A DNA stretch of 40,582 nucleotides from the IMG/VR virus record IMGVR_UViG_3300020183_000184, positions 1 to 40,582 of that record. The stretch is one strand, 5' to 3'. Below are positions 16,596-30,912 of this stretch, piece by piece. The stretch is from a virus. The notes beneath the pieces were generated by a model that saw only the letters and a list, made by a program, of their open reading frames with translations, was not told where the DNA came from and searched no databases. The stretch's first letter is position 1; every line of letters starts with the position of its first letter. The translations under genes and the position numbers were made by a program.

Positions 16596-16931
16596 ATGTT
16601 TACACAAGAAGAACTGCATGAACTTAGCATGATGGCGCAAGCAATTTGGGATTTGCGCCCCAACGCGACATGGGAATTGCCGCGCCCTGATTTTGATTCA
16701 CTTGTTTGGAAAGATGAAGTTCAAACTAAACCAGATTGGGCAGATGTTGAAGCGCGCATGGTCATCCTTAAAGAGGAATACGATGCGCGCGCATGGGTTC
16801 GAGAGCGCCTCGCGGCATACCCTTCTATTGCCGACCAACTAGACCTCATTTACCATGGCGGTATTGATGCATGGCGTGAGACAATTAAAGAAATCAAGAC
16901 TCGTATCCCGAAGCCTGAAGAGTCGATTTAG
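16596..16931 (+). CDS. Fibre-associated small protein (XkdW-like)
   Basis: 111 aa from ATG 16596, one base after the collar-fibre stop; a longer in-frame reading from 16476 lies inside the collar gene and is rejected. Residues about 75-111 (RLAAYPSIADQLDLIYHGGI, DAWRETIKEIKTRIPKP) match the 'YPs..dQLD..YhdGidaW...I..ik...PKP' motif of small phage proteins next to collar fibres (XkdW-like from memory). The N-terminal half is helical with several Trp. Probably a fibre-assembly or attachment factor for the upstream collar protein. Confidence 0.7.
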   Translation: MFTQEELHELSMMAQAIWDLRPNATWELPRPDFDSLVWKDEVQTKPDWADVEARMVILKEEYDARAWVRERLAAYPSIADQLDLIYHGGIDAWRETIKEIKTRIPKPEESI

Positions 16932-16945
16932 GTGATGAGGTAGTT

Positions 16946-18409: not shown

Positions 18410-18522
18410 TGTACAGGATTTCGACAGACCCAATTAGTGGTTCGCAATCCGTAGTGCTTGTTGAGGCAACGTGGTGGATTCCAATGGATGAAGCCAACTC
18501 CGACATTAGTTATAATGGATAA
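18409..18522 (+). CDS. Shortened mini-chaperone (copy lacking the conserved tail)
   Basis: 37 aa, TGATG-coupled to RBP A. MYRISTDPISGSQSVVLVEA then TWWIPMDEANSDISYNG. The N-terminal part and the W.P.DEAN segment match the mini-chaperone at 14055 (WIPCDEANMDY). The following Y..WLAeGNTPEPWEAP.AD and the 40-nt joint are absent; the frame ends in SYNG-stop two bases before the next ATG. It is either a truncated, possibly still functional copy or a deletion product of recombination. Confidence 0.55.
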   Translation: MYRISTDPISGSQSVVLVEATWWIPMDEANSDISYNG

Positions 18523-18524
18523 AT

Positions 18525-19634
18525 ATGACCGGTATTAGACGAATATCAGATTTAGGAACACAGGGTGTTAAGACTATTCTTGATGGCTCTGTACAGACAG
18601 CTGACATAGCTAATAATGCTGTTACACAAGCAAAACTTAGCACAGATGTGCCATTAAGTGGGATGCGTAACAACATCATCAACGGTGATTTTAAAATCAA
18701 CCAACGGCAATTGTTGTCACGCTCCACCACGGGGTATCTCCATGACCGTTGGAGACTTGAGTGCGCCGGAGGCTCCACCACATATAGCACTCAGGCGTTT
18801 ACTCTGGGAAATGAAATATCTGGTTTTGAACCAGCAAACTTTGCTCAATTAGCAGTTTCCGGTCAATCATCGGCAAGTCATTATTCTGTTTTGCACCAAT
18901 ATATTGAAGGCGTTAGGACGTTCGCTGGACAGACGGTTACTGTGTCTTTTTATGCAAGAGCAACATCTGGCACGCCGAAAATTTCTCTTGAGTTAGCTCA
19001 ATACTTTGGGACAGGAGGTTCACCTTCTAACACTGTAAATACAAATGGAGGAATTGTGACTTTGTCAACAACATGGTCACGATACTCATTGACTGTTGCA
19101 GTCCCCTCTATTAGCGGGAAAACTGTAGGGTCAGTTGACGATGCACTGATAGTTCAATTTTGGCTTTCAGGTGGGAGCGACTACTCAGCAAGAATAAATT
19201 CTATGGGGATACAGAACAGCACTTTTCAAATTTGGGGAATACAAGCCGAACCAAACGTTCAGGCCACACCTCTAGAAATCAGGCCACACGCTTTGGAGTT
19301 GCAACTGTGCCAAAGGTATTACTACGAGTTGCGAGGTTGGGGCTTCGACGATGGGTTGTGTCAAGGACATTACTACTCCACTACGCAGTTGTGGTGCGTC
19401 ATCCAGCATCCAGTGCAGATGAGGAAAGGGCCGGTTTTTGCCCTGGCTAACGGGGTTTACAACGCCTATGCAATATCGCAAGGGAACCCAGTGACGACAG
19501 CGGCTCAGTATTCTGGCACGCCACAAACATCTACAGTGTATTTTTCTGTTTTAAACGCTCGCACCCATGGTGTAGGTGGGTGGATTGCTACCGCTGCTGG
19601 AATTATGTATTTCAATTCGGAGTATTTTGGATGA
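18525..19634 (+). CDS. Receptor-binding protein B
   Basis: 369 aa. A short N-terminus (MTGIRRISDLGTQGVKTILD) replaces the adaptor seen in RBP A. It is followed by the shared linker (ADIANNAVTQAKLSTDVPLS) and the RBP module: MRNNIINGDFKINQRQ, VTVSFYARATSGTPKISLEL, FQIWGIQAEPNVQATPLEIR and LQLCQRYY. The tip is unrelated to the others and ends SEYFG, not SAEL. Without the beta-sandwich it would need another protein to dock, or it replaces RBP A as an alternative allele. It overlaps the next mini-chaperone (ATGATG). Confidence 0.8.
   Translation: MTGIRRISDLGTQGVKTILDGSVQTADIANNAVTQAKLSTDVPLSGMRNNIINGDFKINQRQLLSRSTTGYLHDRWRLECAGGSTTYSTQAFTLGNEISGFEPANFAQLAVSGQSSASHYSVLHQYIEGVRTFAGQTVTVSFYARATSGTPKISLELAQYFGTGGSPSNTVNTNGGIVTLSTTWSRYSLTVAVPSISGKTVGSVDDALIVQFWLSGGSDYSARINSMGIQNSTFQIWGIQAEPNVQATPLEIRPHALELQLCQRYYYELRGWGFDDGLCQGHYYSTTQLWCVIQHPVQMRKGPVFALANGVYNAYAISQGNPVTTAAQYSGTPQTSTVYFSVLNARTHGVGGWIATAAGIMYFNSEYFG
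18609..18665 (+). repeat. 57-bp linker repeat, copy 2
   Basis: Second copy of the linker element at 17375-17431 (53/57 identical), again directly before the RBP module. Confidence 0.85.
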
Positions 19635-19807
19635 TGTATTTTTACAACGATGTTGAATTTTTGGGAAATGTGAAACGCCTTGTGTGCTACAAGAACGATG
19701 ACGGTTTGGATTGCTGGCTTCCTGATGGGGAAGCCAATGTGTATTACCAGCAGTGGGTTGCTGAAGGCAACACACCCGAACCGTGGGAGGCCCCTGATGC
19801 CGATTAG
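19631..19807 (+). CDS. Mini tail-fibre-assembly-like protein (copy 2)
   Basis: 58 aa from the first ATG of ATGATG (19631; 19634 is equally possible). MMYFYNDVEFLGNVKRLVCY, then DCWLPDGEANVYYQQWVAEG and NTPEPWEAPDAD. It has the same layout as copy 1: a variable N-terminal strand pair, the W.P.gEAN turn, and the invariant tail encoded by the 40-nt joint. It lies directly after RBP B and so is probably its cognate assembly factor. Confidence 0.7.
   Translation: MMYFYNDVEFLGNVKRLVCYKNDDGLDCWLPDGEANVYYQQWVAEGNTPEPWEAPDAD
19766..19805 (+). repeat. Conserved module joint, copy 2
   Basis: 40-nt joint with GGGAGG (SD) and ATGCCGATT (next start), overlapping the C-terminal codons of the mini-chaperone. 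It is identical by eye to copy 3 at 21990-22029 and differs from copy 1 (14178-14217) at three positions. Confidence 0.85.
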
Positions 19808-19907
19808 TTCGTTCTCCGCTCCGTCCGCGATGGAACGGGTCGGCAGGGGTGCTACTATATCCGCGTTTACGGATACGGGAACTAGGAGCCAGCATGAGTG
19901 CGTCTAG
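19797..19907 (+). CDS. 36-aa ORF started by the joint
   Basis: ATG 19797 uses the GGGAGG of the joint. MPISSFSAPSAMERVGRGAT then ISAFTDTGTRSQHECV. The MPIS start equals that of the full RBP at 20806, and S.SAPSAMERVGRGA...D.GTR loosely recalls fibre peg sequences, but the frame stops after 36 codons. It may be a short peg protein or the decayed 5' end of a tip gene. Confidence 0.35.
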   Translation: MPISSFSAPSAMERVGRGATISAFTDTGTRSQHECV

Positions 19908-19965
19908 CGTAAATCGAGGACTCCGCCCAGGGGTGAGCACAAGGAGTAGTAATGGCTTTCACTGA
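19894..19965 (+). pseudogene. Remnant of a fibre-tip N-terminus
   Basis: ATG 19894 has AGGAG 5 nt upstream. The 23-codon frame reads SASSVNRGLRPGVSTRSSNG. This resembles the start of the tip gene at 22620 (SSNATGLRPGVCTSSTRP, about 12 of 18 positions) and less closely the one at 22021. It then runs into the next adaptor gene and stops. It looks like a tip gene cut off shortly after its start by the insertion of, or recombination with, the adaptor gene at 19952. Confidence 0.45.
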
Positions 19966-20449
19966 GAAAAGACTGTTTAATAGTGGTGTTGCTAGTCCGC
20001 TTGCATTGACAGCTAATACTGATACGACCATTTACACCTGTCCGACGAGTCAGACGACGACTACTATTCTTAAACAAATTGTGATGACTAACACTGGGGC
20101 GTCTTCGACAACGTTTTCAATATCCCTAGTTCCATCTGGTGGTTCCGTTCAAACGTCAAATAGAATATTCAATAGCGTGTCAATCGCGTCTAATGAAACA
20201 ATTATTCTAGATGTCTCGCAAATCTTGACATCTGGTGACTTCATTTCTGCTCTTGCTGGTGCATCTGGTGTGAATATCACTATGTCTGGCGTAGAAAACG
20301 CCGGCGGAATGGTTATCTCGGGCTTGGCTGACAGTGCGGTCACGACGGCAAAAATTGCTAATAGCAACGTCACAGCGGCTAAACTAGGTCCAGACGCTTT
20401 TATAGCCAACAATCAGGCTGGCGCAATAGTTCTTATGGAGATGATGTAA
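19952..20449 (+). CDS. Beta-sandwich adaptor protein with linker
   Basis: 165 aa with AAGGAG before the ATG. Residues about 20-120 repeat the adaptor domain of RBP A: ILKQIVMTNTGASSTTFSIS, SNRIFNSVSIASNETIILDV and VNITMSGVEN. A truncated AKIANSNVTAAKLGPDA linker follows, but then FIANNQAGAIVLMEMM ends the protein where an RBP module would be expected. It is therefore either a stand-alone adaptor or an RBP that has lost its head. TAA directly abuts the next ATG. Confidence 0.65.
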   Translation: MAFTEKRLFNSGVASPLALTANTDTTIYTCPTSQTTTTILKQIVMTNTGASSTTFSISLVPSGGSVQTSNRIFNSVSIASNETIILDVSQILTSGDFISALAGASGVNITMSGVENAGGMVISGLADSAVTTAKIANSNVTAAKLGPDAFIANNQAGAIVLMEMM

Positions 20450-20806
20450 ATGGCTACCGGGGACAGAACAGAAACACGAGTACTAGGTCCAGTAGAACTA
20501 CCGACAACACCTGGACTCATCAATGGCAACCCGAGCAACGCCGTCGCTGCGAGCCGTGTTTGGGTTGTAAAGCAAATTGCCCTATGTAATAGAACGGGAA
20601 CAGACGCGCTTGTGTACCTTGCCCTAGCCCCAAACGGTGTCTCCATTGCAAACAGCCACTACTTCATGTGGGCGCTCCCTATTGCCGCCTCTGACACCCT
20701 GGTTCTTGATACGGGAATTGTGATGGTAACTGGCGACCAGTTTTATGGATATGCCGACCGTGCTGGTGTGAATATCATTGTTAATGGTTGGGTGAAAGAA
20801 GTCTAA
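20450..20806 (+). CDS. Beta-sandwich adaptor protein, second type
   Basis: 118 aa. It has the same fold signature as the adaptor just upstream but is diverged: VVKQIALCNRTGTDALVYLA, NGVSIANSHYFMWALPIAAS and DTLVLDTGIVMVTGDQFYGY. There is no linker. It abuts the upstream stop and overlaps the next gene as TAATG. Tandem placement with the previous adaptor suggests duplication. Probable role: a baseplate-proximal socket for the RBP encoded next. Confidence 0.6.
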   Translation: MATGDRTETRVLGPVELPTTPGLINGNPSNAVAASRVWVVKQIALCNRTGTDALVYLALAPNGVSIANSHYFMWALPIAASDTLVLDTGIVMVTGDQFYGYADRAGVNIIVNGWVKEV

Positions 20807-21861
20807 TGCCTATATCATCTGCTTTAGGTTCGTCTGCGTTGCTGCCTGCTGGCCTCGGGTTTCGTAACAAAATCATCAACGGCGGGTTTGATATCTGGCA
20901 ACGTGGTACGTCGTCGTTCACGACAAACGGCGCATATACGGCAGACCGCTGGGTGATGAATTTGACGGGAACTGGGACAGCGCAAACTGTTAGCCAGGTT
21001 GCCTTTACCGCTGGCAACCCAATCTCTAACCAAGAACCGGCTTATCACATTCGCAATGCTGTAACCGGTGGTTCTGGCACATCTTCGCTTGTTGTGTTGA
21101 CGCAAAAAATTGAGGATGTCAGAACGTGTGCGGGCCAGCCTGTTACGGTTTCTTTTTGGGCGAAGGTGACAAGCGGAACAGCCAACCTTGGTCTTGACTT
21201 GTACCAGGAGTTTGGGTCGGGTGGTTCGGCAACTGTTGGCGGTATCGGTGCGCAGAAGTTTGCGTTGACAACTTCGTGGCAGCGGTTTACGGCACTTATC
21301 AACGTGTCATCTATTAGTAGCAAAACAATTGGGACCAACAATTTTCTTGCTTGCCGTTTTTGGTTTTCGAGTGGCTCTGATTACAACTCGCTGAATAATT
21401 CGCTTGGCATCCAGTCTGCGACTTTTGATATTTGGGGTGTGCAGGTTGAGCAGAACTATCAGCCGACCCCGTTTGAACAACGCCCTTTTGCTGTTGAAGT
21501 TTCTTTATGCCAACGCTACTTTAGCAAATCATTTCAATTAGAAACAGCGCCCGTAAATGGGAATGGTACTGGTGATAATACAGGAAATAATCTTGTTGTA
21601 TGGGCACCAACTGTTGGCAATTCTTATTCAGCAGCAATTAAATTTCCAGTAAGGATGCGTAGAACTCCTGACATCACACTCTATAATGCCGAGACATCAA
21701 CACCTAACACATGGAGTGTATACAACAGTTCTGGTTCAATAAATAACTCGTATTCTGTAGTAGTTGGAACTCGTAATGAAATATCTGTATTGGTTTACGC
21801 TACATCTATTACAACTATCACTGTTTCTAACGGAGCATGGTCAGCGAGTGCGGAATTATGA
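20806..21861 (+). CDS. Receptor-binding protein C
   Basis: 351 aa from ATG 20806; a longer in-frame reading from 20788 lies in the adaptor gene. It begins MPISSALGSSALLPAGLGFR with no adaptor, then the RBP module: NKIINGGFDIWQRGTSSFTT, VTVSFWAKVTSGTANLGLDL, FDIWGVQVEQNYQPTPFEQR and VSLCQRYF. A separate tip of about 110 residues ends WSASAEL. Nucleotide and protein similarity to RBP A and B is highest in the body and lost in the tip, as expected for host-range variation. It overlaps the next mini-chaperone as ATGA. Confidence 0.8.
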   Translation: MPISSALGSSALLPAGLGFRNKIINGGFDIWQRGTSSFTTNGAYTADRWVMNLTGTGTAQTVSQVAFTAGNPISNQEPAYHIRNAVTGGSGTSSLVVLTQKIEDVRTCAGQPVTVSFWAKVTSGTANLGLDLYQEFGSGGSATVGGIGAQKFALTTSWQRFTALINVSSISSKTIGTNNFLACRFWFSSGSDYNSLNNSLGIQSATFDIWGVQVEQNYQPTPFEQRPFAVEVSLCQRYFSKSFQLETAPVNGNGTGDNTGNNLVVWAPTVGNSYSAAIKFPVRMRRTPDITLYNAETSTPNTWSVYNSSGSINNSYSVVVGTRNEISVLVYATSITTITVSNGAWSASAEL

Positions 21862-22031
21862 AAAAGTATTTTATAACCAATTCTGACCCTTTGTGCGGTA
21901 TTAGTGTTGCTCGTCTTGATGATGACGGAATAATTACATGGCTTGGCGTCCCAAATGAGGATTTAGAATACCAAGAATGGCTCGCCGCTGGCAACACACC
22001 CGAACCGTGGGAGGCCCCTGATGCCGATTAA
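21858..22031 (+). CDS. Mini tail-fibre-assembly-like protein (copy 3)
   Basis: 57 aa from ATG 21858. MKKYFITNSDPLCGISVARL, then ITWLGVPNEDLEYQEWLAAG and NTPEPWEAPDAD. The first about 35 residues differ from copies 1 and 2, while the tail is the same. Its last 11 nt overlap the next gene's start. It directly follows RBP C. Confidence 0.7.
   Translation: MKKYFITNSDPLCGISVARLDDDGIITWLGVPNEDLEYQEWLAAGNTPEPWEAPDAD
21990..22029 (+). repeat. Conserved module joint, copy 3
   Basis: 40-nt joint, identical by eye to 19766-19805, with GGGAGG and ATGCCGATT; here the next gene is a complete tip protein. Confidence 0.85.
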
Positions 22032-22623
22032 CAATTACATAGCGTCCTCTGCCATTGCTAAACCAGGAGTATGTACTAGTACTACTCGTCCTGCTAGTCC
22101 TTATGAGGGTCAGTTTATTTACGAAACAGATACAAGCAAAACATTGTTGTGGACTGGTTCTTTATGGGTTACTCAAAATTGGGCTGGTCAATGTGCATTT
22201 TCGGCGTATAACCCAAGCAATATACAAATTTGTAGTAGCGGAACATCAACAAACGTTTTATACCCATATACAGAAAGATATGACCTAGGAAGCAACTTTA
22301 ATGCAACTACTGGAGTTTTTACTGCTCCAGTTTATGGTGTCTATTCTTTTTCTATTGTTTTGCACGCAATGGGAATCTCTGCCAGTACTGATTTCCTTTT
22401 CGTTAATATGACTGGCAACATTAACGTTGAGTTTATGGTCGTTTCGGGAACTAGTAATGAAAATTATAATACTAGTGGACAAGGAACACTTTCCACAGTT
22501 TTGAACGCTGGAGAAGTAGTGGGGCCACCAACTGTTGGGACAAACACAGCACAAGGTGCGGCGTACTGGCGTGGTGGAAATACTTTTAATAGTTTTACTG
22601 GAATGTTGGTGCGCCCACTATGA
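22021..22623 (+). CDS. C1q/TNF-like fibre-tip protein
   Basis: 200 aa, started by the joint. The N-terminal peg motif KPGVCTSTTRPASPYEGQFI then YETDTSKTLLWTGSLW is shared with the next gene. Residues about 60-200 read as a C1q/TNF-type jelly roll: YDLGSNFNATTGVFTAPVYG, VYSFSIVLHAMGISAS, then LSTVLNAGEVV and a closing GMLVRPL. The 'f....G.ft.p..G.Y.f...' pattern is characteristic. Such heads trimerise and bind sugars or proteins. ATGA overlap to the next gene. Confidence 0.75.
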   Translation: MPINNYIASSAIAKPGVCTSTTRPASPYEGQFIYETDTSKTLLWTGSLWVTQNWAGQCAFSAYNPSNIQICSSGTSTNVLYPYTERYDLGSNFNATTGVFTAPVYGVYSFSIVLHAMGISASTDFLFVNMTGNINVEFMVVSGTSNENYNTSGQGTLSTVLNAGEVVGPPTVGTNTAQGAAYWRGGNTFNSFTGMLVRPL

Positions 22624-23180
22624 CCATTTCATCTAACGCTACAGGACTAAGACCGGGGGTCTGTACGTCGTCTACTAGGCCGAGCAACCCGTTTACGGGG
22701 CAGATTATCTACGAGACTGACACGGGTTATCTGCGTGTGTGGGACGGTTCAGCGTGGGACTACCTCAGCCAGTCTGCGGATAACACGGCTGCGTTACGCC
22801 CAGCGGCAGGTCTGATTGGCACGGTGGCTAATTGGGCAAGCAACACTAAAACTGTTAGTTCGGCATCTCCAACAGTTGACTTGTATGACCAAACCTTGAA
22901 TTTGGTCGGTGGAAGAAATTACAAATTGAACTGGTCTTTTGACGTATTCCATTCTGCTGCCGTTACATGGTTTCTATATGTTTACGTCAACACTGTGTTT
23001 ACGGGGACGTTGGCATTTTCTAACTCGTACCAAATTGGTACATCGTGGATTTACCCAAATACCACTACGTCATCAAAACGCATACAACTTAGGGCGTCGT
23101 ACAACTCGGGGGCTGGAACCGCCTATTTTGGAAGTTTGGCAATAGGTGGTGTGTGGCTTGAGGACGTCGGTCCTACGTGA
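22620..23180 (+). CDS. Fibre-tip protein, second type
   Basis: 186 aa. The N-terminal peg (LRPGVCTSSTRPSNPFTGQI, YETDTGYLRVWDGSAWDYLS) is followed by a different beta-rich head of about 120 residues: NTKTVSSASPTVDLYDQTLN, NYKLNWSFDVFHSAAVTWFL and FGSLAIGGVWLEDVGPT. The pair with the previous gene shows head exchange behind a common peg. Its stop overlaps a GTG that opens the 24-aa frame in the 62-bp repeat. Confidence 0.7.
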   Translation: MTISSNATGLRPGVCTSSTRPSNPFTGQIIYETDTGYLRVWDGSAWDYLSQSADNTAALRPAAGLIGTVANWASNTKTVSSASPTVDLYDQTLNLVGGRNYKLNWSFDVFHSAAVTWFLYVYVNTVFTGTLAFSNSYQIGTSWIYPNTTTSSKRIQLRASYNSGAGTAYFGSLAIGGVWLEDVGPT

Positions 23181-23251
23181 CCATTTCGGTTTGCACTAGC
23201 ACCTACAACAACACCCCCGACCAATTATGTGCTATTGTCTCGAGCGTATAA
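23177..23251 (+). CDS. 24-aa ORF inside the 62-bp repeat (copy B)
   Basis: GTG 23177 overlaps the preceding stop as GTGA; the frame reads VTISVCTSTYNNTPDQLCAI then VSSV and stop. It has the same frame and most residues as the ORF at 15248. Of the five nucleotide differences in the repeat, one is silent and the rest give N/T, C/P and V/A changes. Product doubtful. Confidence 0.3.
   Translation: MTISVCTSTYNNTPDQLCAIVSSV
23183..23244 (+). repeat. 62-bp direct repeat, copy B
   Basis: Matches 15251-15312 at 57/62. It ends at the same CTCGAG. It sits at the exact downstream end of the fibre locus. Confidence 0.9.
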
Positions 23252-23254
23252 GTA

Positions 23255-23270
23255 CACCCCTCGAGGGCAC
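23255..23270. repeat. Palindrome with CTCGAG core
   Basis: CCCTCGAGGG at 23258-23267 is a perfect 10-bp palindrome within CACCCCTCGAGGGCAC; 12 nt are shared (inverted) with the element at 10438-10453. A second CTCGAG lies 17 nt upstream at the end of the 62-bp repeat. No T-run; possibly an mRNA hairpin or binding site. Confidence 0.5.
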
Positions 23271-23311
23271 AATAGTTGTAAAGAGTTTCCGCAACAAGGA
23301 GTGATGACAAA

Positions 23312-23467
23312 ATGGAAGAACAGCTCGACCCGCAAACACTTATCGACGAACTCGTCAGGCGCATCCAAACACTAACGCTCGAAAACGTGGTGTTATCAGC
23401 GCGCCTCACAGCAGCAATCAAATCACAAAACGAAACAACTGCCAGCGGAGACGACACAGGGCAGTAA
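23312..23467 (+). CDS. Small helical protein
   Basis: 51 aa from ATG 23312, with AAGGAG about 10 nt upstream (a nearer ATG in another frame at 23304 is too close to the SD and out of frame). MEEQLDPQTLIDELVRRIQT then LTLENVVLSARLTAAIKSQN shows a clear heptad pattern, so a coiled-coil oligomer is likely; the tail is ETTASGDDTGQ. It follows the fibre locus and opens the accessory cassette. I do not recognise a family; short coiled coils of this kind are common around phage tail genes. Confidence 0.6.
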   Translation: MEEQLDPQTLIDELVRRIQTLTLENVVLSARLTAAIKSQNETTASGDDTGQ

Positions 23468-23470
23468 ACA

Positions 23471-23707
23471 TTGGTTACCATCAATCGCTCCGTCGCCATG
23501 ATGGACTCGCTCAAGCAGGAGCTGTTTACGCTGTGCATCCAGAATGGCATTGACCCAGAGACGCTGGACATCGAAAATCCAGATTCCGACCCAGCAATAG
23601 CGGCGTCTACTCCTCACGAGCATAACTTCTATGCAATTCGTAGAATTAAGCAGGTATGCGAGGGATACGTCTTGGCTAAAGGGAAGTTTGATAATCTAGC
23701 CGAGTGA
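23471..23707 (+). CDS. Small paralogous protein, member 1
   Basis: 78 aa if started at TTG 23471 (CAGGG upstream); ATG 23498 or 23501 would shorten it by 9-10 residues. The core LKQELFTLCIQNGIDPETLD then IENPDSDPAIAA and a C-terminal helix IRRIKQVCEGYVLAKGKFDN matches the proteins at 26994 and 28312: a helix ending 'eLf.Lc..nGiDPe.iDien' and a second helix 'ie.lc..y....gk'. Three copies lie within 5 kb, one on the other strand. Function unknown. The stop overlaps the next gene as GTGA. Confidence 0.65.
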   Translation: MVTINRSVAMMDSLKQELFTLCIQNGIDPETLDIENPDSDPAIAASTPHEHNFYAIRRIKQVCEGYVLAKGKFDNLAE

Positions 23708-24144
23708 TTCGTTCGGTTTACTGCCCTTCTGAGGAGTTCCTTGAAGAGGCGCAATCTTTAGCTGAAAAAAATAGCCTGTCTATAACTATTGGACGGTCGG
23801 AATCTATGGAAAATATAGATTTTGACGAAACCAGGGTATGCATTGTCCACATCCCCACAATTCACATTTTTAATATTTCATCGCCGACCCTTCCGATTGG
23901 ACTGATGCAGGCTTTTGGGTATACGTGTGATTACATTGATTTTAAGAAAGATGGCAATACTCCGATACTGAAAGTCAGGTATGGGCATAATTTTTCAGAA
24001 GAAATAAAAATACAGCCTTTTTATCTAGAGTCCCATATAGCAAAGTATTCGCATAGATTTTCTTCGGCAGGCATACATGATGTGAGTATTGTTGTTGCCG
24101 GGGAAGAATATGTCAAAAATTACACATTTGAGGTGACGGAGTGA
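23704..24144 (+). CDS. Hypothetical protein with C-terminal beta domain
   Basis: 146 aa, GTG start overlapping the previous stop (GTGA). The N-terminal part (VYCPSEEFLEEAQSLAEKNS) is helical; the middle includes IVHIPTIHIFNISSPTLPIG. The last 35 residues (KYSHRFSSAGIHDVSIVVAG, EYVKNYTFEVTE) look like an Ig/PKD-type strand set ('h.F...G.h.v.i.v.g'). It is translationally linked to the 2OG oxygenase (GTGA). No enzyme motif is visible. It could be a partner or substrate of the adjacent enzymes. Confidence 0.55.
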   Translation: MIRSVYCPSEEFLEEAQSLAEKNSLSITIGRSESMENIDFDETRVCIVHIPTIHIFNISSPTLPIGLMQAFGYTCDYIDFKKDGNTPILKVRYGHNFSEEIKIQPFYLESHIAKYSHRFSSAGIHDVSIVVAGEEYVKNYTFEVTE

Positions 24145-24728
24145 AGATAGAAGTTTTAGCGCCATGCATCAACTATTACACAGAGGTATATGACGCTTAT
24201 CCATTAATAGAAATGCTTGAAGAGGAGGCCGATAAATCGTGGCCTCGGATGGAGTGGGCGAGGTCATCTACCGGGCAGGCTGGTAATACATCTGTAAATG
24301 AGTACCGCTCGTCAATGGAAATGTCCTTGCTACCGATTATGACCGAAGAGGACATACCGGAGTTAAACCACATAAAAGATGGGTTTCATAAAATATACAG
24401 TGAAATAGATAAGTGCGTCTGGGACTACAGAAACCAGTATGAATTATTTATTTCTCGTCACGAGCCATTTAGTGTTTTGAGGTATGAGAATAGCGCTGAA
24501 TACCATATACATACAGACTCGTCCCCAGAGAACGGAAGAGTCATGAGTATGGTTGGGTACTTTAACGACGGATATGAGGGCGGAAAATTGGAGTTCCCAT
24601 TATTTAATGTAGAAATTCAGCCAGAGGCCGGCTCTGTAATCCTCTTTAGTTCGGCATATCCATACCAACATGCTGCACACCCAGTAACGAAAGGCACCAA
24701 GTATTCCTTGGTGACGTGGTTCCAGTGA
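24141..24728 (+). CDS. 2-oxoglutarate/Fe(II)-dependent oxygenase (prolyl-hydroxylase type)
   Basis: 195 aa; GTG start in a GTGA overlap. The double-stranded beta-helix signature is complete: YHIHTDSS supplies the HxD iron ligands (H124, D126), HAAHPVTKGTKYSLVTWF supplies the distal His (H177), and K187 stands where Arg or Lys binds 2-oxoglutarate. EGGKLEFPLFNVEIQPEAGS is the usual 'GGeL.fp.....v.P..G.' stretch. These enzymes hydroxylate side chains of proteins or small molecules using O2 and 2-oxoglutarate. Relatives are frequent in T4-like cyanophages near tail genes. The substrate is unknown; the neighbours (DUF6065-like, halogenase) suggest a shared modification pathway. Confidence 0.85.
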   Translation: MKIEVLAPCINYYTEVYDAYPLIEMLEEEADKSWPRMEWARSSTGQAGNTSVNEYRSSMEMSLLPIMTEEDIPELNHIKDGFHKIYSEIDKCVWDYRNQYELFISRHEPFSVLRYENSAEYHIHTDSSPENGRVMSMVGYFNDGYEGGKLEFPLFNVEIQPEAGSVILFSSAYPYQHAAHPVTKGTKYSLVTWFQ

Positions 24729-25531
24729 GAAAAGTAAAGTACAAGATTGCAAATTTCACTTCGGATATTCCGAGAGTGAAAAAAAACGAAATGCTTATAA
24801 TTCCGCATACAAACCTACTGTGGGAAGTGCCTCCATTTACGAATAGAAACAACAAGCCAGAGTGGTGGAAAAATCTAGAAAAGGGGAAAGGCTCTCTCCG
24901 GAGGTGCCATGGAACTATTGACTACCTGTCTCTGGGCGTCACATTTTCGCTATGGACAAATGTTCACGTAAGACCGACAGCGAACAACAAAAGTTTCGAG
25001 CTCAAGCTGGACCAAATGGGCGCACCAGAAATGAGGCCAGAGTTTAGAACCGAATGGTTCCCGTACTCCTCAACGGAGGGGTGTCCGTTTGCAAAAAACA
25101 GAGAAATACCTGAAGGCGACTTTCCCAAGCTGGTTACGCCCTGGATGTTTAAAACTGCACCAGGGTATTCCACACTAATCCTTCCGACCCTATTTGAGCA
25201 AAATCCCAACTATTCAGTTTTGCCGGGAGTTGTTCATACCGACTACTACCACGCAATAAATATTGTTCTCAATATACATACTAAAAATGAGTTCACTATA
25301 CCGATAGGGACCCCCATGTATCAGTTGATTCCATTTAAGAGGAGCGACAATACCTCCGAAATAATCAAGGGCAACGAAAGCATGTGGAGATTTGTAAACG
25401 GAAGAGGTGTTGGCCAGCACTACTTGGGCGATTTTGACAGAAGAATTTCGTACCGCAGGGAGTTGGCGCGAGCCGATGATTCTGTGGAAAAAGAAGACAA
25501 GTCGCTTATTGAAAGAATCCTGAGAAGATGA
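24725..25531 (+). CDS. DUF6065-like phage protein
   Basis: 268 aa from GTG 24725 (GTGA overlap); an in-frame GTG at 24716 gives three more residues. Residues about 130-220 contain LVTPWMFKTAPGYSTLILPT, SVLPGVVHTDYYHAINIVLN and IPIGTPMYQLIPFKRSD. This is the pattern of a phage-associated family ('...W.i.tppG.s.l.t.P.n.....f..l.GvveTD....in...........i..GtPi.qviPf.R') that I recall as DUF6065, a small all-beta, dUTPase- or cupin-like fold. The N-terminal 100 residues contain NLLWEVPPFTNRNNKPEWWK. Enzymatic role unknown. It lies between the oxygenase and the halogenase, coupled to both. Confidence 0.65.
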   Translation: MRKVKYKIANFTSDIPRVKKNEMLIIPHTNLLWEVPPFTNRNNKPEWWKNLEKGKGSLRRCHGTIDYLSLGVTFSLWTNVHVRPTANNKSFELKLDQMGAPEMRPEFRTEWFPYSSTEGCPFAKNREIPEGDFPKLVTPWMFKTAPGYSTLILPTLFEQNPNYSVLPGVVHTDYYHAINIVLNIHTKNEFTIPIGTPMYQLIPFKRSDNTSEIIKGNESMWRFVNGRGVGQHYLGDFDRRISYRRELARADDSVEKEDKSLIERILRR

Positions 25532-26991
25532 TTAAAACAATATGTGTTGCTGGTTCAGGAACGGCTGGGAACATATTCGCCTTGATGCTTAGGCAGGCAT
25601 TTCCGTCATGTGAAATCATAAAGGTCTACTCTCCAGAAATAGGCATAGTTGGCGTCGGTGAGGGCTCGACTGAACACTGGAAAATGTTTATGAATATGTG
25701 TGAAATCCCATTAGGGGAGATGATTGTAGAGACTTCAGCTACACACAAACTAGGAATTAGGTTCGAAGGGTGGACAAATCACACCCCTGATTATTTTCAC
25801 AGTATTAGCGGCAACGAGTATCTAAACCAGTTTGGGCTAATGGGGCTGTACTCGGGTCTTAATGAAAACAGAAAACTTCTAACTAATTCAATTTCTTATA
25901 GAGGTCTTATAGAGCATTCCGTCCACTCGAAAGACCCACACAACAGGACAAATCAGTTTCACTTTGACACTTTCAAGCTCAATAAATACTTCGAAAAGCT
26001 GTGTATTCAAAGGAATATAAAACTTGTAGAGGCTGAGATAAAAAATGTGGAAATTGATGTGGAAAACGGACGAATAAAGTCCCTTCACCTAGACAATAAT
26101 AAAGCTGTCAGTGCTGACATATTTATTGACGCAACGGGTTTCAAAAGAGTGCTGATGTCGGCCGTCGGCGCAAATAAATGGAAGTCATATTCTAAATTCC
26201 TCCCTATGAATGCGGCAATCGCATTTCCTTCAGCTTTGCCAGAAGACAGAAAAATAAACCCCTTCACTAGGGCTATAGCAAAATCATCTGGGTGGATGTG
26301 GGAAATTCCCACACAAGAGAGACGTGGCAACGGTTATGTGTACTGCTCTGAATTTATTTCTGAAGAAGAGGCTGTTAATGAGGCGTCTACTCAGGTCGGC
26401 TTCGAGGTTGAACCAGCAAGAAAGTTCTCAATAGACCCAGGTTGTCTTGAGGAGCAATGGGTGAAGAACGTCATTTCAGCAGGACTATGTTCAAGTTTTG
26501 TCGAGCCACTCGAAGCAACCTCCATAGGTTCAACAGTGATGCAATCTGTGGCGGCAGTTAGGTATTTGGCTGGATACAACGGAAGCCCGGTTTTGGCAAA
26601 AAACTACAACGCGCGGATGAATGAAATGATGGAGAATCTCGTGTCCATGATTTCTCTTCACTATCTCTCAGATAGGGGAGATACGGAATTTTGGAGATTC
26701 GCCCAGGGGCTGGATAGGCCGGAATATCTGGTCGAACTTCTGGAGCTTTGGGCAGTGAGACCACCGACAGAGGGGGACATGAAGAAGGGGCAATATGAGT
26801 TATTCCATGAACCCCATTTCTGGCATGTAGCTCAGGGCCAGGGGCTCATCAGCGCTGACGCCTCCTCGCGTATAATTGACATGCTTGGTATTAGGCAGGC
26901 AGTCAACAAAAAAATATGGGACCTCAAGGTTGAGCAAACCGCTGAACCAGTGATTGACCATCTAAAAGCACTACTTGCTCTAAAGGAGTAA
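25528..26991 (+). CDS. FAD-dependent tryptophan-type halogenase
   Basis: 487 aa; ATGA overlap. The diagnostic features of the flavin-dependent halogenase family are present. GSGTAG (9-14) and GVGEGST (42-48) bind FAD. ATHKLGIRFEGW (71-82) carries K74, equivalent to the catalytic Lys of PrnA-type enzymes. WMWEIP (256-261) is the WxWxIP motif that separates halogenases from monooxygenases. FVEPLEATSIG (324-334) contains the conserved Glu of EPLE. Length (about 500 aa) is normal, so it is probably active. Reduced FAD would have to come from a host reductase. A marine cyanophage homologue (VirX1) halogenates small aromatic substrates in vitro, and phage versions lie among tail genes. The natural substrate is unknown. 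Confidence 0.9.
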   Translation: MIKTICVAGSGTAGNIFALMLRQAFPSCEIIKVYSPEIGIVGVGEGSTEHWKMFMNMCEIPLGEMIVETSATHKLGIRFEGWTNHTPDYFHSISGNEYLNQFGLMGLYSGLNENRKLLTNSISYRGLIEHSVHSKDPHNRTNQFHFDTFKLNKYFEKLCIQRNIKLVEAEIKNVEIDVENGRIKSLHLDNNKAVSADIFIDATGFKRVLMSAVGANKWKSYSKFLPMNAAIAFPSALPEDRKINPFTRAIAKSSGWMWEIPTQERRGNGYVYCSEFISEEEAVNEASTQVGFEVEPARKFSIDPGCLEEQWVKNVISAGLCSSFVEPLEATSIGSTVMQSVAAVRYLAGYNGSPVLAKNYNARMNEMMENLVSMISLHYLSDRGDTEFWRFAQGLDRPEYLVELLELWAVRPPTEGDMKKGQYELFHEPHFWHVAQGQGLISADASSRIIDMLGIRQAVNKKIWDLKVEQTAEPVIDHLKALLALKE

Positions 26992-26993
26992 AA

Positions 26994-27242
26994 ATGGGTA
27001 TAGAACAGTTTCTATCTGCGGAAGATAAAAAGGCTGCACTTGGGGAGGTTAAGTCACTCCTTGAAAGGGAGATTTATTTCCTGTGCCTGAAAACGGGCGT
27101 AGACCCGGAAGAGATTGACCCAGAGACGTTTACCGCTCAGGGGGTAATCAATCCCGTGCCCGTGAGCATGATGACGTACCAAATAATTGAAACCCATTGT
27201 AAGAATCTAGTAGCGGTTACAGCAAAACTAGCGACAATGTAG
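26994..27242 (+). CDS. Small paralogous protein, member 2
   Basis: 82 aa; GGAG 5 nt before the ATG, 2 nt after the halogenase stop. The core LEREIYFLCLKTGVDPEEID then PETFTAQGVINPVPVSMMTY and IIETHCKNLVAVTAKLATM parallels the proteins at 23471 and 28312. Its position directly behind the halogenase makes it a candidate helper or target peptide, but no such link is visible in sequence. Confidence 0.65.
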   Translation: MGIEQFLSAEDKKAALGEVKSLLEREIYFLCLKTGVDPEEIDPETFTAQGVINPVPVSMMTYQIIETHCKNLVAVTAKLATM

Positions 27243-27252
27243 GGCCCGGATT

Positions 27253-27972
27253 ATGGTATGGCCCCAGTATCTAACGCTACCAAATGAGGTAATTTTTAGA
27301 CCACCGGCAACGGAGCCGCCTGGTTACAATGGCGTTTTTCAGTTAATGAAAAGCTTTTTTGTTGTTGAAGGTCTAAATGTTCCCAGAACTGGGCGTTGCG
27401 AGAATCTTTGCTATAGCTCGGACTCCCCGGTTGTTGGCACAAAATATGAAAGCGAAGTAAACCTACTCGGAAAGAAGTCACCATTTTCCGGCACCTCACT
27501 AAAGACAGAGAATCTAAAAGTAGTGCGGTGGGTAATGGATGTAAAAGGGCTGTTTTCTATTGTGTATCTGGAATACACAGAACACCCAGTCGTCTATGGT
27601 GAATCGAGAGACTCTTTCTATTTGGAACAGGACGACTCCCCGTCAGCGATGTGGGTTGGCAGAACTCTTCCAGAGCTTTTCAAAAACATGAGAGAATGGT
27701 CCATCCTTCTGGATGACCCCTTCAATTCTGACCACCCCGTTGCACAGATTTCCAAAGCTGCATTTGATTACATGGGCACCCCAGAATGGGTGTATGAGGA
27801 AATAGATAATATGCCCGATATGCATTTATCTAGATTTCTCAAGGGCGATGAAAACTATAGAGAGCTCGTATGGGGGTTCCCTCAGTTTTCTAACGAAATG
27901 ATTGATTGGCTTGACAGCCACTTTAAAGCCAATAAATTCAAATCTCTTGAGCAGATGCTTGAGGAAATGTAA
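27253..27972 (+). CDS. Hypothetical protein of the halogenase cassette
   Basis: 239 aa from ATG 27253. A well-formed soluble protein with motifs LPNEVIFRPPATEPPGYNGV, KVVRWVMDVKGLFSIVYLEY, PSAMWVGRTLPELFKNMREW and the acidic C-terminal region DDPFNSDHPVAQISK, ending HFKANKFKSLEQMLEEM. No catalytic signature or TM is visible. It has the same strand and tight spacing as the halogenase, so it is probably part of the same operon; the stop overlaps a 25-aa ORF (TAATG). Confidence 0.55.
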   Translation: MVWPQYLTLPNEVIFRPPATEPPGYNGVFQLMKSFFVVEGLNVPRTGRCENLCYSSDSPVVGTKYESEVNLLGKKSPFSGTSLKTENLKVVRWVMDVKGLFSIVYLEYTEHPVVYGESRDSFYLEQDDSPSAMWVGRTLPELFKNMREWSILLDDPFNSDHPVAQISKAAFDYMGTPEWVYEEIDNMPDMHLSRFLKGDENYRELVWGFPQFSNEMIDWLDSHFKANKFKSLEQMLEEM

Positions 27973-28049
27973 TGACATTACAGGAAGAAAAACTTTACAA
28001 AGAAGCCCAACCGTACAACCACGGATTTTTCGTTTTATGGTCTGATTGA
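27972..28049 (+). CDS. 25-aa ORF at the end of the forward operon
   Basis: TAATG overlap with the previous gene. MTLQEEKLYKEAQPYNHGFF then VLWSD and stop. The start is well placed but there is no independent support. The stop lies inside the first inverted repeat of the terminal region. It may be a leader or a non-functional frame. Confidence 0.3.
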   Translation: MTLQEEKLYKEAQPYNHGFFVLWSD

Positions 28050-28075
28050 AACATTTAAATCAGATGTTCAGACAT
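28041..28075. terminator. Inverted repeats between convergent operons
   Basis: TCTGATT-gaaacattta-AATCAGA (28041-28064) forms a 7-bp stem; GATGT-TCAG-ACATC (28062-28075) forms another. They lie between the last forward ORF and the reverse zinc-ribbon gene, where a bidirectional terminator is expected. No long T-tract follows, so termination efficiency is uncertain. Confidence 0.4.
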
Positions 28076-28099
28076 CAGACAGAATATCTGGCCTATAAA

Positions 28100-28315
28100 T
28101 CACCAATGCCCGACTGGGCACTCGGCGTGCTGTAGACGCACCTTGAGGTTCATAAAACAACCACACTTACGACACTGGTTTGTCGCTTCAATAAAATGAG
28201 GGCATTCGGTACATATTGAGTACCTATTACGCGCTTCTTCATCGGATGCGTATTTGGTCGACTTCCTGAAAAAGTCTAAAGGAGAGGCTTTTTTACCGCG
28301 ATTTTCTCTTGTCAC
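28100..28315 (-). CDS. Small zinc-ribbon phage protein
   Basis: 71 aa from GTG 28315, which overlaps the preceding stop as GTGA; the longer frame from 28360 overlaps its neighbour by 49 nt and is rejected. The C-terminal half has six Cys positions in two knuckles: YSICTECPHFIEATNQCRKC then GCFMNLKVRLQHAECPVGHW. This 'iC..Cp.f...t..CrkCGCfm..K..l..a.CP.g.W' pattern is a recurrent small phage zinc protein (DUF6171-like from memory). It is the last gene of the reverse tail operon. Confidence 0.75.
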   Translation of the reverse strand: MTRENRGKKASPLDFFRKSTKYASDEEARNRYSICTECPHFIEATNQCRKCGCFMNLKVRLQHAECPVGHW

Positions 28316-28575
28316 GAAAGAGAGTCTATCTTGCCTTGCAACATGGCGTAAGCATTGCACAGTTCTTCAATTCGTGACACCTCGATTGATTTACTGGGAT
28401 TCTTTTCGTCATCTTTAAGTGATGCCAAAATTGAGTTTTCAAATGGGTTGGAAATATCTATATCATCAGGGTCTATCCCATTGATGGCCAGCAGTCTGAA
28501 CAACTCTGTCGCTATTTGTGACTTAGCAGCAGAAAGCGAAGCCATTTTCTGTATGTTTGAAATTTCAAGTTTCAT
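28312..28575 (-). CDS. Small paralogous protein, member 3
   Basis: 87 aa; AGGAG 5 nt before the ATG. The core AKSQIATELFRLLAINGIDP, DDIDISNPFENSILASLKDD and SRIEELCNAYAMLQGKID is closest to member 1 at 23471. It is the only member on the reverse strand, at the junction where the two tail operons converge. It lies just after the His-rich fibre gene and overlaps the zinc-ribbon gene (GTGA). Confidence 0.65.
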   Translation of the reverse strand: MKLEISNIQKMASLSAAKSQIATELFRLLAINGIDPDDIDISNPFENSILASLKDDEKNPSKSIEVSRIEELCNAYAMLQGKIDSLS

Positions 28576-28583
28576 TTCTTCTC

Positions 28584-30200
28584 CTAATTATTAAGAACAA
28601 TTATCTGCATTCCTGGAGTGCCAGCTATGCTCCACGGGGGAATCGGTAAGCTTGATGTACCACCAGAGGTGTCAATTGATATCCCGGAAGGTGGGGATGT
28701 CTCGGTAACCAATATTACTCCTCCTCCGCCCCCAGGATTGCCATTAGTTCCTTCTGTTACTGAGCCAGCAGTTCCCGCTGGTCCGGCCAATCCAGCTACC
28801 CCTGCAGCACCACCAGGCCAATCGAAGGAATAGTGCCCTACGTTTAGAACTGGTCCAGCATGTCTGTGTACATTTACATCATGGGCTCGGGGCGCTCTAT
28901 GGTGTACGGTGTACTGGCCGGTAACGTATTGTATGCCGCCGGAGAACCCGCCTTGACCGCTGTTATTTGCCCCAGTATGGTTCACGTTGGCGTTGTGATG
29001 ATAATGAACAGGGTTATCAAGTTGCATGTGCGCATAATTACCCGCTGGAGCTCCACCGGTAGATGAAGGAGAGGAAAAGTGATTATGGTTTACCCCATTT
29101 ATAGAAGTAAAATCACCGGCGAACGGAACAAAGTTATTTAGTATCCCATGGTCATGGTGGGTTGCTGCCGCAAAAGTCGGAATACCACCTATTGATGCTG
29201 AGTAATGCTCTTCATACACATATCTTTGAGACGCAGAGCTGGCATGACTCATGATAAATGAGCCATTCGTTGGGTCTGGAAAACCAGCCGTACGCGCGCC
29301 AGCATGTGAATGCGGCAGTGGGGTTGTGTGGTGGTCCTGTCCACTGTGGTGCGCTGGCCTAGTGTGATGGTATGTATAAAAGGCAACAGCGTGTCCAGTC
29401 TTAGCGGCTGGAGAAGAGCCTCCCGAACCAGGCGAGCCTCCATGCATTGGCCCTGGCGCTATTGCCGGTGTTTTATCAATTCCATTCCTTCCTTGACTAA
29501 AAATTGTTCCACTTCCAGCGACAGTCTTTGCCGCGACTATTACAACAGGTCCACCAAAACCTCCTGCTCCGCCAACCCCCGCTGTACCCGGCGAAGCCAA
29601 AGCGCCTCTTGTCCCTGGCGTTGCATCCGAGCCTTTTCCACCAGGAACACCATGGTTGTTTGCATCTGGTGGATACTGTCCAGGACTACCGCCTGTACCG
29701 GCAGAACCGGGCCATGTTGCAGGGGAATCTGTACCGGGTGTTAGTGTTCCATTTGTTCCAGATGTTCCTCCGGAACCGCCAGAAAGCTGCCTCAAAATCC
29801 CAGAAGACTCCCGGTATGAGCCAGATACAGCAGATTGCACATCATTTAAAATAGATGCGGGTATTTGTGTTGCTGTTGTTCCAGGACCAGCTCCGCCTAT
29901 TGAGTAAATTACCGCAGTAGAAGATGGTGTATTCCCAGATACAGTACCGGAAGTAACAGTTGTATTGCTTTTCACACCTATGGAACCATTTATCGTCAGT
30001 GCACTTTTCACAAAAACCCTGAACCCATTCGTGTTTAGATGAACCCCAGAATTTATTGTTAGATTGTTATAGTGCATGTCCCTAGATAGCGAGGTGTTGG
30101 CTGAAATAACAACGTTTCCATCCACGCCACTTCCATAGACAGAATCGTTGCCAATTCTTTGTTTAAAGGTTTTATCTGGAAATCTTACGAGCGAACCCAT
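28584..30200 (-). CDS. Gly-rich, extremely His-rich tail fibre/adhesin
   Basis: 538 aa. The N-terminal 75 residues (VYGSGVDGNVVISANTSLSR, DMHYNNLTINSGVHLNTNGF, RVFVKSALTINGSIG) form a beta-helix-type fibre base shared with the next gene. Residues 140-265 are Gly/Pro/Ser/Thr-rich collagen-like or polyglycine segments. Residues 269-456 contain about 27 histidines, many as HH or HxH (HHTTPLPHSHAG, THHDHG, NHNHF, VHYHH, VHRHAG). The end is again Gly-rich (GGAAGVAGLAGPAGTAGS, PGGGGGVILVTETSPP). Gly-rich sandwiches occur in phage adhesins, and HxH sites bind metal along trimer axes, so a metal-stabilised receptor-binding tip is likely. Confidence 0.7.
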   Translation of the reverse strand: MGSLVRFPDKTFKQRIGNDSVYGSGVDGNVVISANTSLSRDMHYNNLTINSGVHLNTNGFRVFVKSALTINGSIGVKSNTTVTSGTVSGNTPSSTAVIYSIGGAGPGTTATQIPASILNDVQSAVSGSYRESSGILRQLSGGSGGTSGTNGTLTPGTDSPATWPGSAGTGGSPGQYPPDANNHGVPGGKGSDATPGTRGALASPGTAGVGGAGGFGGPVVIVAAKTVAGSGTIFSQGRNGIDKTPAIAPGPMHGGSPGSGGSSPAAKTGHAVAFYTYHHTRPAHHSGQDHHTTPLPHSHAGARTAGFPDPTNGSFIMSHASSASQRYVYEEHYSASIGGIPTFAAATHHDHGILNNFVPFAGDFTSINGVNHNHFSSPSSTGGAPAGNYAHMQLDNPVHYHHNANVNHTGANNSGQGGFSGGIQYVTGQYTVHHRAPRAHDVNVHRHAGPVLNVGHYSFDWPGGAAGVAGLAGPAGTAGSVTEGTNGNPGGGGGVILVTETSPPSGISIDTSGGTSSLPIPPWSIAGTPGMQIIVLNN

Positions 30201-30201
30201 G

Positions 30202-30912
30202 TTATATGACCTGCATGTAAAAAACTGTCCCAGCGTTTTGACCAGCTACATCCGTAGCCACTCCAGATGGAAGTGAAACCCCACTTGAAACAATTAATAT
30301 GACTCCTCCACCGGCAGGTGCTGTTCCTGGAGCCCTAAACGATGCAGTTCCTGATGATGGTCCACCTATGTATCGAGCAGAAACTACCACAACTCCACCA
30401 CCCGGCTGGCTGTTCCCACCAGCGCCGCCCCTAAGGTATGTTGGGCCACCCCCAGATGCGGTGATAGAATAACCAGTTATCGCCTGATGTGGAACTCTAA
30501 AATATTCAGTGCCGCCTAATGCTGCGGTAGGTGGAGTAGCGGTAAATCCAGAAGCTGAACCACCAAGGCTATGGGTAACCGATGTAGACGCTGCACCACC
30601 CTGCTGTATGGAGCCAGCGGTTGAAAACCCAGTAGTAAAACCAATTACCGAGCTAGAGCCAAAACTGAGAGTTCCCTTTACGAATATTCTGTATCCGTTT
30701 GGCGCTAGTCGTACTCCAGAGTTAATAGACAAGTTCTGAAAATGAATGTCTCGAGTCATTGAGTAGACGTTCCCAGATGGGGTCATGCTTAAAACTGCGC
30801 TAGACCCGTCTAGGGTGGCGTTGCCATCCATCCCGGTTCCATATACCGGGTCGGCTGAGTCAAGAAACTGCGCTAGTGTATTTTGCGCTGGGTAGCGCTC
30901 AATGCCAGGCAT
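30202..30912 (-). CDS. Tail fibre, paralogue of the His-rich fibre base
   Basis: 236 aa, 1 nt upstream of the His-rich fibre. Residues about 20-92 (VYGTGMDGNATLDGSSAVLS, MTRDIHFQNLSINSGVRLAP, NGYRIFVKGTLSFGSSSV) repeat the base domain of that protein. The rest is Gly/Ser-rich (ASGGGPTYLRGGAGGNSQPG, GGVVVVSARYIGGPSSG) and ends VILIVSSGVSLPSGVATDV. It lacks the His-rich region. It may form the proximal part or an alternative short form of the same fibre. Confidence 0.7.
   Translation of the reverse strand: MPGIERYPAQNTLAQFLDSADPVYGTGMDGNATLDGSSAVLSMTPSGNVYSMTRDIHFQNLSINSGVRLAPNGYRIFVKGTLSFGSSSVIGFTTGFSTAGSIQQGGAASTSVTHSLGGSASGFTATPPTAALGGTEYFRVPHQAITGYSITASGGGPTYLRGGAGGNSQPGGGVVVVSARYIGGPSSGTASFRAPGTAPAGGGVILIVSSGVSLPSGVATDVAGQNAGTVFYMQVI

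Follow-up and report, generated by a model that had tools for sequence, protein, structure and literature searches.

The described enzymes closest to the one considered here are the halogenases PyrH, PrnA and RebH, the lanthipeptide tryptophan 5-halogenase MibH, the halogenases BrvH and Xcc4156 and, among viruses, VirX1. The crystallised VirX1 (6qgm) is CPUG_00131 of phage Syn10 (phmmer E 0, 530 residues). As to what viral halogenases act on in nature, the passages available from the literature give suggestions only. The roles offered there for these enzymes or their neighbours are host antibiotic protection, decoration of metabolites or the capsule, 2-oxoglutarate (2OG) balance and DNA repair (PMC3037559, PMC2984593, PMC9964418, PMC9146016, PMC7824862, PMC10452541, PMC8407142, PMC8659048). 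Virions of the phage S-CREM1 have already been studied by mass spectrometry (PMC9964418). In the titles, abstract beginnings and passages of the open-licence literature we found no link between a halogenase, phrog_7084 and glycine-rich tail genes. Here we describe a halogenase gene at positions 25528-26991 of the IMG/VR virus record IMGVR_UViG_3300020183_000184 (40,582 bp; this whole stretch is called the window). At the level of sequence, we established the predicted enzymes of its locus with the residues that serve metal binding and catalysis, the overlap of the genes and their order, and a linkage to glycine-rich tail genes that recurs among actinophage-like contigs as well as among cyanophages, that of VirX1 included. 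We consider it as likely as not that the halogenase belongs, with other enzymes, to a module for modification of the tail tip.

The halogenase and its active site

The open reading frame (ORF) runs exactly from 25528 to 26991 on the + strand, opens with ATG and encodes 487 residues followed by a stop codon. It matched PF04820 (Trp_halogenase) over residues 5-445 (E 2e-96) and phrog_2928 (tryptophan halogenase; E 1.3e-99). As an identical protein (100%) is encoded on three more contigs (L002-L004), the ORF is not a sequencing artefact; it is a real gene of the flavin-dependent-halogenase family. The initial annotation had read a halogenase with GxGxxG, a catalytic-type lysine (K74), WMWEIP and the glutamate of an EPLE motif, and the two family matches together with a motif alignment bore out this identification. 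The alignment contained 39 clade members, the other 38 of which are 46-54% identical to the window protein. The GxGxxG glycines (G9, G11 and G14) and K74 were present in all 39, and K74 also in all nine rows of a database-phage comparison set (nine halogenases from eight phage records). The WMWEIP sequence occupies residues 256-261, residue 258 (the second W of WxWxIP) being W in 37 clade members and F in two. Residues 324-335 read FVEPLEATSIGS, and it is the second glutamate of EPLE, E329, that aligns with the glutamate of PLES in PyrH and BrvH. This residue, found in 39/39, we take to be the equivalent of PrnA E346 (the title of 2jkc names E346D). The positions without variation across the clade are G9, G11, G14, E45, K74, W256, I260, P261, E326, P327 and E329. 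Where PyrH and BrvH have a serine directly after the glutamate, every one of the 39 proteins has alanine (Ala330), and hence the site is not wholly that of a classical halogenase.

Among the database-phage halogenases those of Syn1 (L088) and S-PM2 (L086) have Gln at the E329 position, and that of DSL-LC01 has Asp there and WVSKIP in the tryptophan motif; judged by these residues, some viral relatives may have lost halogenase activity. None of the NCBIfam tryptophan-halogenase equivalogs scored above its curated cut-off with the window halogenase (QhpG 22.5 of 240 bits, CmlS 21 of 900 bits). Flavin reductase PF01613 was found in none of the 11 phage records searched; the control matched in 13/14.

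An AlphaFold model of the protein, built from 39 sequences (mean pLDDT 91.3), has the two-domain halogenase fold and aligned with PyrH by VIA-align with Z 44.9 over 476 residues at 2.1 A. The Z values for other halogenases were 44.2 for Xcc4156, 43.3 for BrvH, 42.9 for PrnA, ~41 for RebH, 40.6 for MibH and 37.9 for VirX1. As far as fold and alignment go, the model agrees with PrnA and VirX1, the two halogenases with which the annotation had proposed comparing it, and to that extent only it withstands the refuting condition set there, a K74 or EPLE glutamate placed away from the halide tunnel. PyrH, PrnA and RebH (28%, 23% and 26% identical to the window halogenase) share with it the fold, GxGxxG, the lysine, WxWxIP and the glutamate, but the window enzyme differs in its phage tail context and, relative to PyrH, in having Ala for Ser after the glutamate. 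MibH, which belongs to a natural-product pathway, has the same fold and is 24% identical; its ribosomal peptide substrate, known from the entry title, is the kind of target proposed here. BrvH and Xcc4156, taken together with the cellular relatives near TonB-dependent receptor genes, share the fold but fall in separate tree groups and lack the tail genes. VirX1 has in common with the window halogenase the PF04820 family and the fold (phmmer E 9.3e-39), but is only 21% identical in the structural alignment and belongs to another halogenase lineage from another host group.

A quick tree of 105 rows (68 from viral contigs, nine from database phages and 28 of the 80 cellular relatives; PrnA, RebH, PyrH and VirX1 were left out, and several long-branch warnings were given) united the 68 viral-contig rows, the window included, in one group (SH-aLRT 99) with P-SSM2 and S-H38, both from cyanophages, as its sisters (96). 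S-RIM44 contributed two rows, a VirX1-like one among them; these joined cellular rows (97), their branches being long, and closest kinship to VirX1 was not recovered. The grouping about which the annotation had asked is thus a virus-only one, apart from the VirX1-like S-RIM44 row.

Linkage of the halogenase to 2OG, d271 and glycine-rich genes

Halogenase relatives were present in 71 of 50,697 phage records and at 198 loci in viral contigs, and an available passage of PMC10452541 gives halogenases in 20 of 153 cyanophages; the description of viral halogenases as rare does not survive these counts. For the linkage analysis the best 80 of the 198 viral-contig relatives were reduced to 41 loci non-redundant at 90% halogenase identity. 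The partners are two enzyme-like proteins encoded directly upstream, a 2OG-Fe(II) oxygenase and d271 (a phrog_7084 member), and a pair of glycine-rich proteins, gly236 and gly538. Both d271 and the 2OG enzyme were present in 37 of the 41 loci, and the cassette proteins p146, p82 and p239 in 33, 38 and 26, respectively. At the HMM threshold used, d271 was missing despite sufficient room in L013, L032 and L037, and the 2OG enzyme in L020 and L041. The glycine-rich pair was found in 38/41 loci, no more than six genes away in 35 and upstream of the halogenase in 37 of the 38. The pair was lacking from three loci: from L019 and L029, where there is <2 kb of upstream sequence, and from L074, which is a true exception.

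The linkage was also approached from the partner genes. As single-sequence scans found few relatives (nine loci for gly236 and three for the 2OG enzyme), alignments were used for these searches; a tblastn search of gly236 against phages gave no result. Among the best 80 of 268 gly236 matches a halogenase was present in 60 of the 75 newly fetched loci, and by the listed gene orders the other 15 reach the contig end first; one of these, L114, has the window's arrangement up to its contig end. The best 80 of 540 2OG matches gave a halogenase in 72 of 76 newly fetched loci, and in the remaining four the contig stops within 1 kb.

In 25 of the 41 loci the halogenase is followed, usually at 0.7-3.3 kb, by a gene for a tryptophan-rich, membrane-like protein of 93 residues (L079:13362-13643 is an example), which is 64-92% identical between loci. 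It is absent from the window, and in the 119-kb contig G002 it is encoded at 95473-95739, ~76 kb from the cassette. This protein is another possible substrate.

VirX1 and the named phages

The partners of VirX1 in Syn10 are of the same kinds as those of the window halogenase, namely glycine-rich tail genes, phrog_7084 and 2OG-like genes. Upstream of VirX1 are two glycine-rich PF21722 genes, a gene for a protein of 164 residues and another halogenase. On its downstream side come phrog_7084, one small gene and then several 2OG-like genes in succession, the stretch examined containing seven 2OG-like ORFs. In a difference from the window, no p146 or p239 family member was found in the eight database-phage stretches searched, Syn10 lying outside that search.

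These neighbours were traced over 18 named phage records, that of Syn10 among them. The phages are related, and ten were chosen because they resemble the VirX1 relative in S-RIM44. PF21722 scored above cut-off in 12 records and in eight of these lay 468-698 bp from the halogenase. With random placement 1.05 of the 12 records would be expected to have the two genes within 6 kb, and eight were reached in none of 200,000 simulations; owing to the kinship and the manner in which ten of the records were chosen, the simulation figure is not a clean probability. In five of the 18 phages phrog_7084 was present, always directly downstream of the halogenase. The d271 profile matched in one of seven named phages, and 2OG-like ORFs occurred in the fetched stretches of 15 of the 18. 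DSL-LC01 has collagen-annotated genes upstream of its halogenase. Other settings were also seen: S-B64 and S-MbCM6 carry the halogenase beside recombination or photosynthesis genes, S-SSM6a among carbohydrate-type genes with PF21722 6.9 kb away, and HTVC008M beside 2OG and terminase genes with PF21722 8.0 kb away.

Annotations of DNA endonuclease V beside cyanophage halogenases (L082:4401-5033 and 7443-7934; L346:10229-10816) look wrong because these ORFs match 2OG-oxygenase profiles. A phrog_7084 match was also seen in Caulobacter vibrioides, among 14 control genomes.

The halogenase family also recurs beside surface proteins outside phages. At 80 loci of cellular relatives the neighbour clusters were TonB-dependent receptor (47), cupin-like PF13621 (nine) and SapC (six), each identified from one example per cluster. 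In the top cellular relative (36%), that of Acinetobacter piscicola (L262, 1373-5479), the halogenase follows two secreted-looking genes with similar N-terminal ends.

Organisation of the cassette and properties of its products

In the window the halogenase is one of seven genes of the same direction, overlapping or 2-10 nt apart, between 23471 and 27972. The first encodes a p82-family small protein (23471-23707, +; TTG start) recognised by sequence and family search, and overlaps by 4 nt the GTG-started gene of p146 (23704-24144, +), a conserved cassette protein that has no match in Pfam or PHROG. The p146 gene in turn overlaps by 4 nt the 2OG-Fe(II) oxygenase gene (24141-24728, +), which is followed by d271 (24716-25531, +), whose 3' end has 4 nt in common with the start of the halogenase. 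A second p82-family copy (26994-27242, +) begins 2 nt past the halogenase and gave no match in Pfam and PHROG searches. The last gene encodes p239 (27253-27972, +), a conserved cassette-associated protein without a match in a PDB profile search. On the opposite strand are gly236 (30202-30912, -), gly538 (28584-30200, -) and, downstream of this pair, a third p82-family copy (28312-28575, -), with a p82 match at the same place in L002. Several tail-fibre-like genes lie upstream of the cassette, one at 20788-21861 (+; phrog_4492, E 2.2e-68) and others within 8946-19634. The tail locus of the annotation is thus supported by PHROG matches and neighbouring genes, but the conserved enzyme cassette immediately beside the halogenase had been overlooked. 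A repeat search of 22000-28600 gave no result, nor did a scan for promoters and terminators (11 versus 12.7 and 8 versus 5.9 in shuffles).

The 2OG oxygenase matched PF13640 (E 1.9e-15), and its profile was nearest prolyl 4-hydroxylases, with E 3.2e-12 against the prolyl 4-hydroxylase structure 3itq. The HxD...H...K residues, comprising the metal triad (H124, D126 and H177) and the 2OG-binding residue (K187), are intact in 28/28 aligned sequences. The protein is predicted to be prolyl-4-hydroxylase-like, hydroxylation of peptidyl-proline being suggested by similarity only. The d271 protein matched phrog_7084 (E 1.9e-25) and more weakly a dUTPase profile (E 0.0052). By Foldseek its model (pLDDT 86.8) has a dUTPase fold, the best match having E 1.2e-4 and probability 1.00, although the TM-score by query was just 0.24-0.36. 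The catalytic Asp of dUTPase motif 3 is replaced, by His in 27 of 34 sequences and by Asn in the other seven.

Based on composition, the periodicity of 37 relatives and linkage, gly538 is a candidate tail-tip adhesin and candidate substrate; gly236, recognised by alignment and linkage, is its glycine-rich partner and likewise a candidate substrate. The gly538 relatives contain 20.0% Gly and 7.5% His, versus 9.7% and 2.2% across the proteins of the same loci. Glycine tends to recur at every third residue, exceeding expectation 2.28-fold at lag 3, 1.91-fold at lag 6 and 1.55-fold at lag 9 (37 proteins), and this glycine-repeat scaffold encloses a variable, histidine-rich centre. Both Syn10 glycine-rich proteins also have histidine loops in a glycine scaffold, and the glycine periodicity of the cyanophage proteins is weaker (1.52 at lag 3, the mean of eight). 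The window glycine-rich proteins gave no match in Pfam, PF21722 included, or in NCBIfam.

T-even-like phages have gp38-type polyglycine tail-tip adhesins. The gly538 relatives resemble these in their period-3 glycine scaffold and variable histidine-rich centre, but gly538 has no family match in Pfam or NCBIfam, and membership is not claimed. Halogenated Gly-/His-rich worm jaws were considered as a precedent and set aside, as the literature passages describe halogenated Tyr and 5-bromohistidine from sponge skeletons.

Proposed role and alternatives

In the proposed module the phage would make glycine-rich tail-tip proteins with histidine loops together with the cassette enzymes, from a mobile and presumably co-transcribed set of genes. 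The prolyl-hydroxylase-like 2OG-Fe(II) oxygenase would add hydroxyl groups to side chains within the tail-tip adhesin, or within an adjoining protein. Using reduced FAD supplied by the host, O2 and halide, the halogenase would act through K74 and E329 on side chains of the adhesin (or adjoining protein) to give a halogenated product, whereas d271, having lost its catalytic Asp, may serve as a binding scaffold. Modification before virion assembly would then tune receptor binding or stability, and might so affect adsorption. The annotation had favoured a virion or host-envelope target, and our comparison of neighbourhoods speaks in favour of one in the virion.

A wider form of the proposal is that a mobile cassette, composed of a flavin halogenase, 2OG hydroxylases and a dUTPase-fold protein that has been inactivated, halogenates and hydroxylates side chains, with His and Tyr as candidates, of Gly-/His-rich adhesins in phages whose hosts span two or more bacterial phyla. 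We put this forward tentatively and think it rather doubtful as a whole. If it is true, a virus particle would be halogenated by an enzyme, and this would be what VirX1 does in nature. The occurrence of the same kinds of partners with two halogenase lineages from different host groups gives a testable target for VirX1-type enzymes and suggests that phages may broaden the chemistry of receptor binding post-translationally. The finding thus suggests an extension from a single gene to a module offering such enzymes a natural role that can be put to the test.

Several observations weigh against modification of the tail tip. The proposal rests on sequence and gene context, and we infer rather than observe the presence of gly538 and gly236 in the virion. 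The glycine-rich proteins of the actinophage-like and cyanophage groups appear similar in kind only, PF21722 not being matched in those of the window. Tryptophan is scarce in gly538 (0.7%) and absent from one of its 37 relatives, and thus cannot be an obligatory target there. Pro-Gly is mildly enriched in gly538 (265 versus 212.7 expected) and not in the cyanophage proteins (13 versus 14.0), which lends little support to proline as the target. Of the named phages, 10/18 have no PF21722 gene over cut-off within 6 kb and 13/18 lack phrog_7084, whereas the halogenase of L074 lacks the glycine-rich pair, d271 and 2OG enzyme alike (3.5 kb upstream and 4.6 kb downstream). Moreover, the linkage counts come from related phages and lack independence, and the profiles of the reverse searches, from which the best matches were taken, were made from halogenase-bearing loci.

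The best alternative, although in our judgement unlikely, is that the halogenase is an auxiliary metabolic gene which halogenates free tryptophan, indole or another host small molecule to give an antibiotic, a signal or a surface glycan decoration that helps the infected cell. Its best match in both sequence and fold, PyrH, is a free-tryptophan halogenase, and the S-SSM6a and S-MbCM6 halogenases sit among carbohydrate-type and beside photosynthesis genes, respectively. Abstracts or passages of earlier work propose a small-molecule role for cyanophage prnA (PMC2984593, PMC9964418) and metabolite or capsule decoration for S-SSM6a (PMC7824862). However, the ten neighbours scanned include no recognisable biosynthetic genes, but tail proteins, the 2OG enzyme and d271 instead, and the same kinds of partners recur across phages of different hosts.

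An alternative compatible with a tail-tip target, and one we hold improbable, is that the flavin enzyme hydroxylates instead of halogenating, being a protein-modifying monooxygenase with a halogenase fold. QhpG is a flavin monooxygenase that modifies protein-bound Trp, and the window halogenase gave a weak NCBIfam match to it (E 4.6e-5), far under the cut-off. Hydroxylation would also fit the constant pairing with a hydroxylase-type 2OG enzyme, the replacement of Ser by Ala after E329 in 39/39 and the Gln or Asp at the Glu position in three of the nine database-phage relatives. Against it, the clade keeps K74, E329 and WxWxIP and, according to the passages of PMC8407142 available, VirX1, whose partners are of like kinds, catalyses iodination and bromination in vitro.

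Equally improbable is hitch-hiking of a moron cassette in an often-recombining tail-fibre region without action on tail proteins: the window, G002 and G001 do share 33 kb at >99.9% and then diverge, in cells the relatives have genes for a TonB-dependent receptor, a cupin-like protein or SapC as neighbours instead of tail fibres, and some phage halogenases have other contexts, but position and partners are constant (the short PF21722 spacing in eight named phages, the glycine-rich pair in 38/41 loci), and a second set in G001 has its own glycine-rich pair. Modification of the tail tip is our preferred reading.

Apparent movement of the cassette between phages

The second set in G001 (L096, 10746-17543, -) is a full one: its 2OG enzyme is 43%, halogenase 52%, d271 47%, gly236-type protein 44% and gly538-type protein 36% identical to those of the first set. 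G001 has 33 kb in common with the window at 99.95% and a different left flank, and the second set may be either a genuine variant or the product of an assembly join. The cassette contigs carry two different terminases, each related to those of actinobacteriophages. The G002-type terminase was found in six of 13 contigs (G002 included) in one search and in four of 29 in another, and three of 41 contigs have the other terminase, nearest Streptomyces phages (45.7-47.0%). Since rows from both kinds interleave in the halogenase tree (most rows being unlabelled), the cassette seems to have moved between phage backbones.

The virus and its probable host

From position 7532 onwards the window matches the beginning of G002 at 99.97% identity, which allowed the virus to be placed through genes of the longer contig. 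The G002 major head protein is 48.6% identical to that of Brevibacterium phage Cantare and 46.8-49.0% to those of the listed Gordonia phages; ten other contigs of 34 asked encode a head protein 58-81% identical to it (G002 being the eleventh match). The primase is nearest Arthrobacter phages (29-31%), whereas the terminase is mixed (~42% to Gordonia phages, 42.7-43.6% to methanogen viruses). By these relatives the window virus is likely an actinobacteriophage, as the annotation had guessed, and probably infects aquatic actinobacteria. It is perhaps a myovirus, as a tail-sheath domain match on G002 was obtained, though under the curated cut-off (27 of 31.4 bits). The T4-type capsid PF07068 was found in none of 13 records, but the positive controls were likewise without a match, and a megablast of window positions 8000-22000 against phages gave no result.

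Further regions of the window gave matches of other kinds. A phrog_724 exonuclease match at 402-474 (E 9e-4) was dismissed as chance. Just upstream of the cassette region, 22021-22623 (+) encodes a C1q domain protein (PF00386, E 2.8e-6). At the left end, outside the part common to G002, the segment 258-2179 (-) encodes an HslV-family peptidase (phrog_1040) and a metallo-phosphoesterase (phrog_20266).

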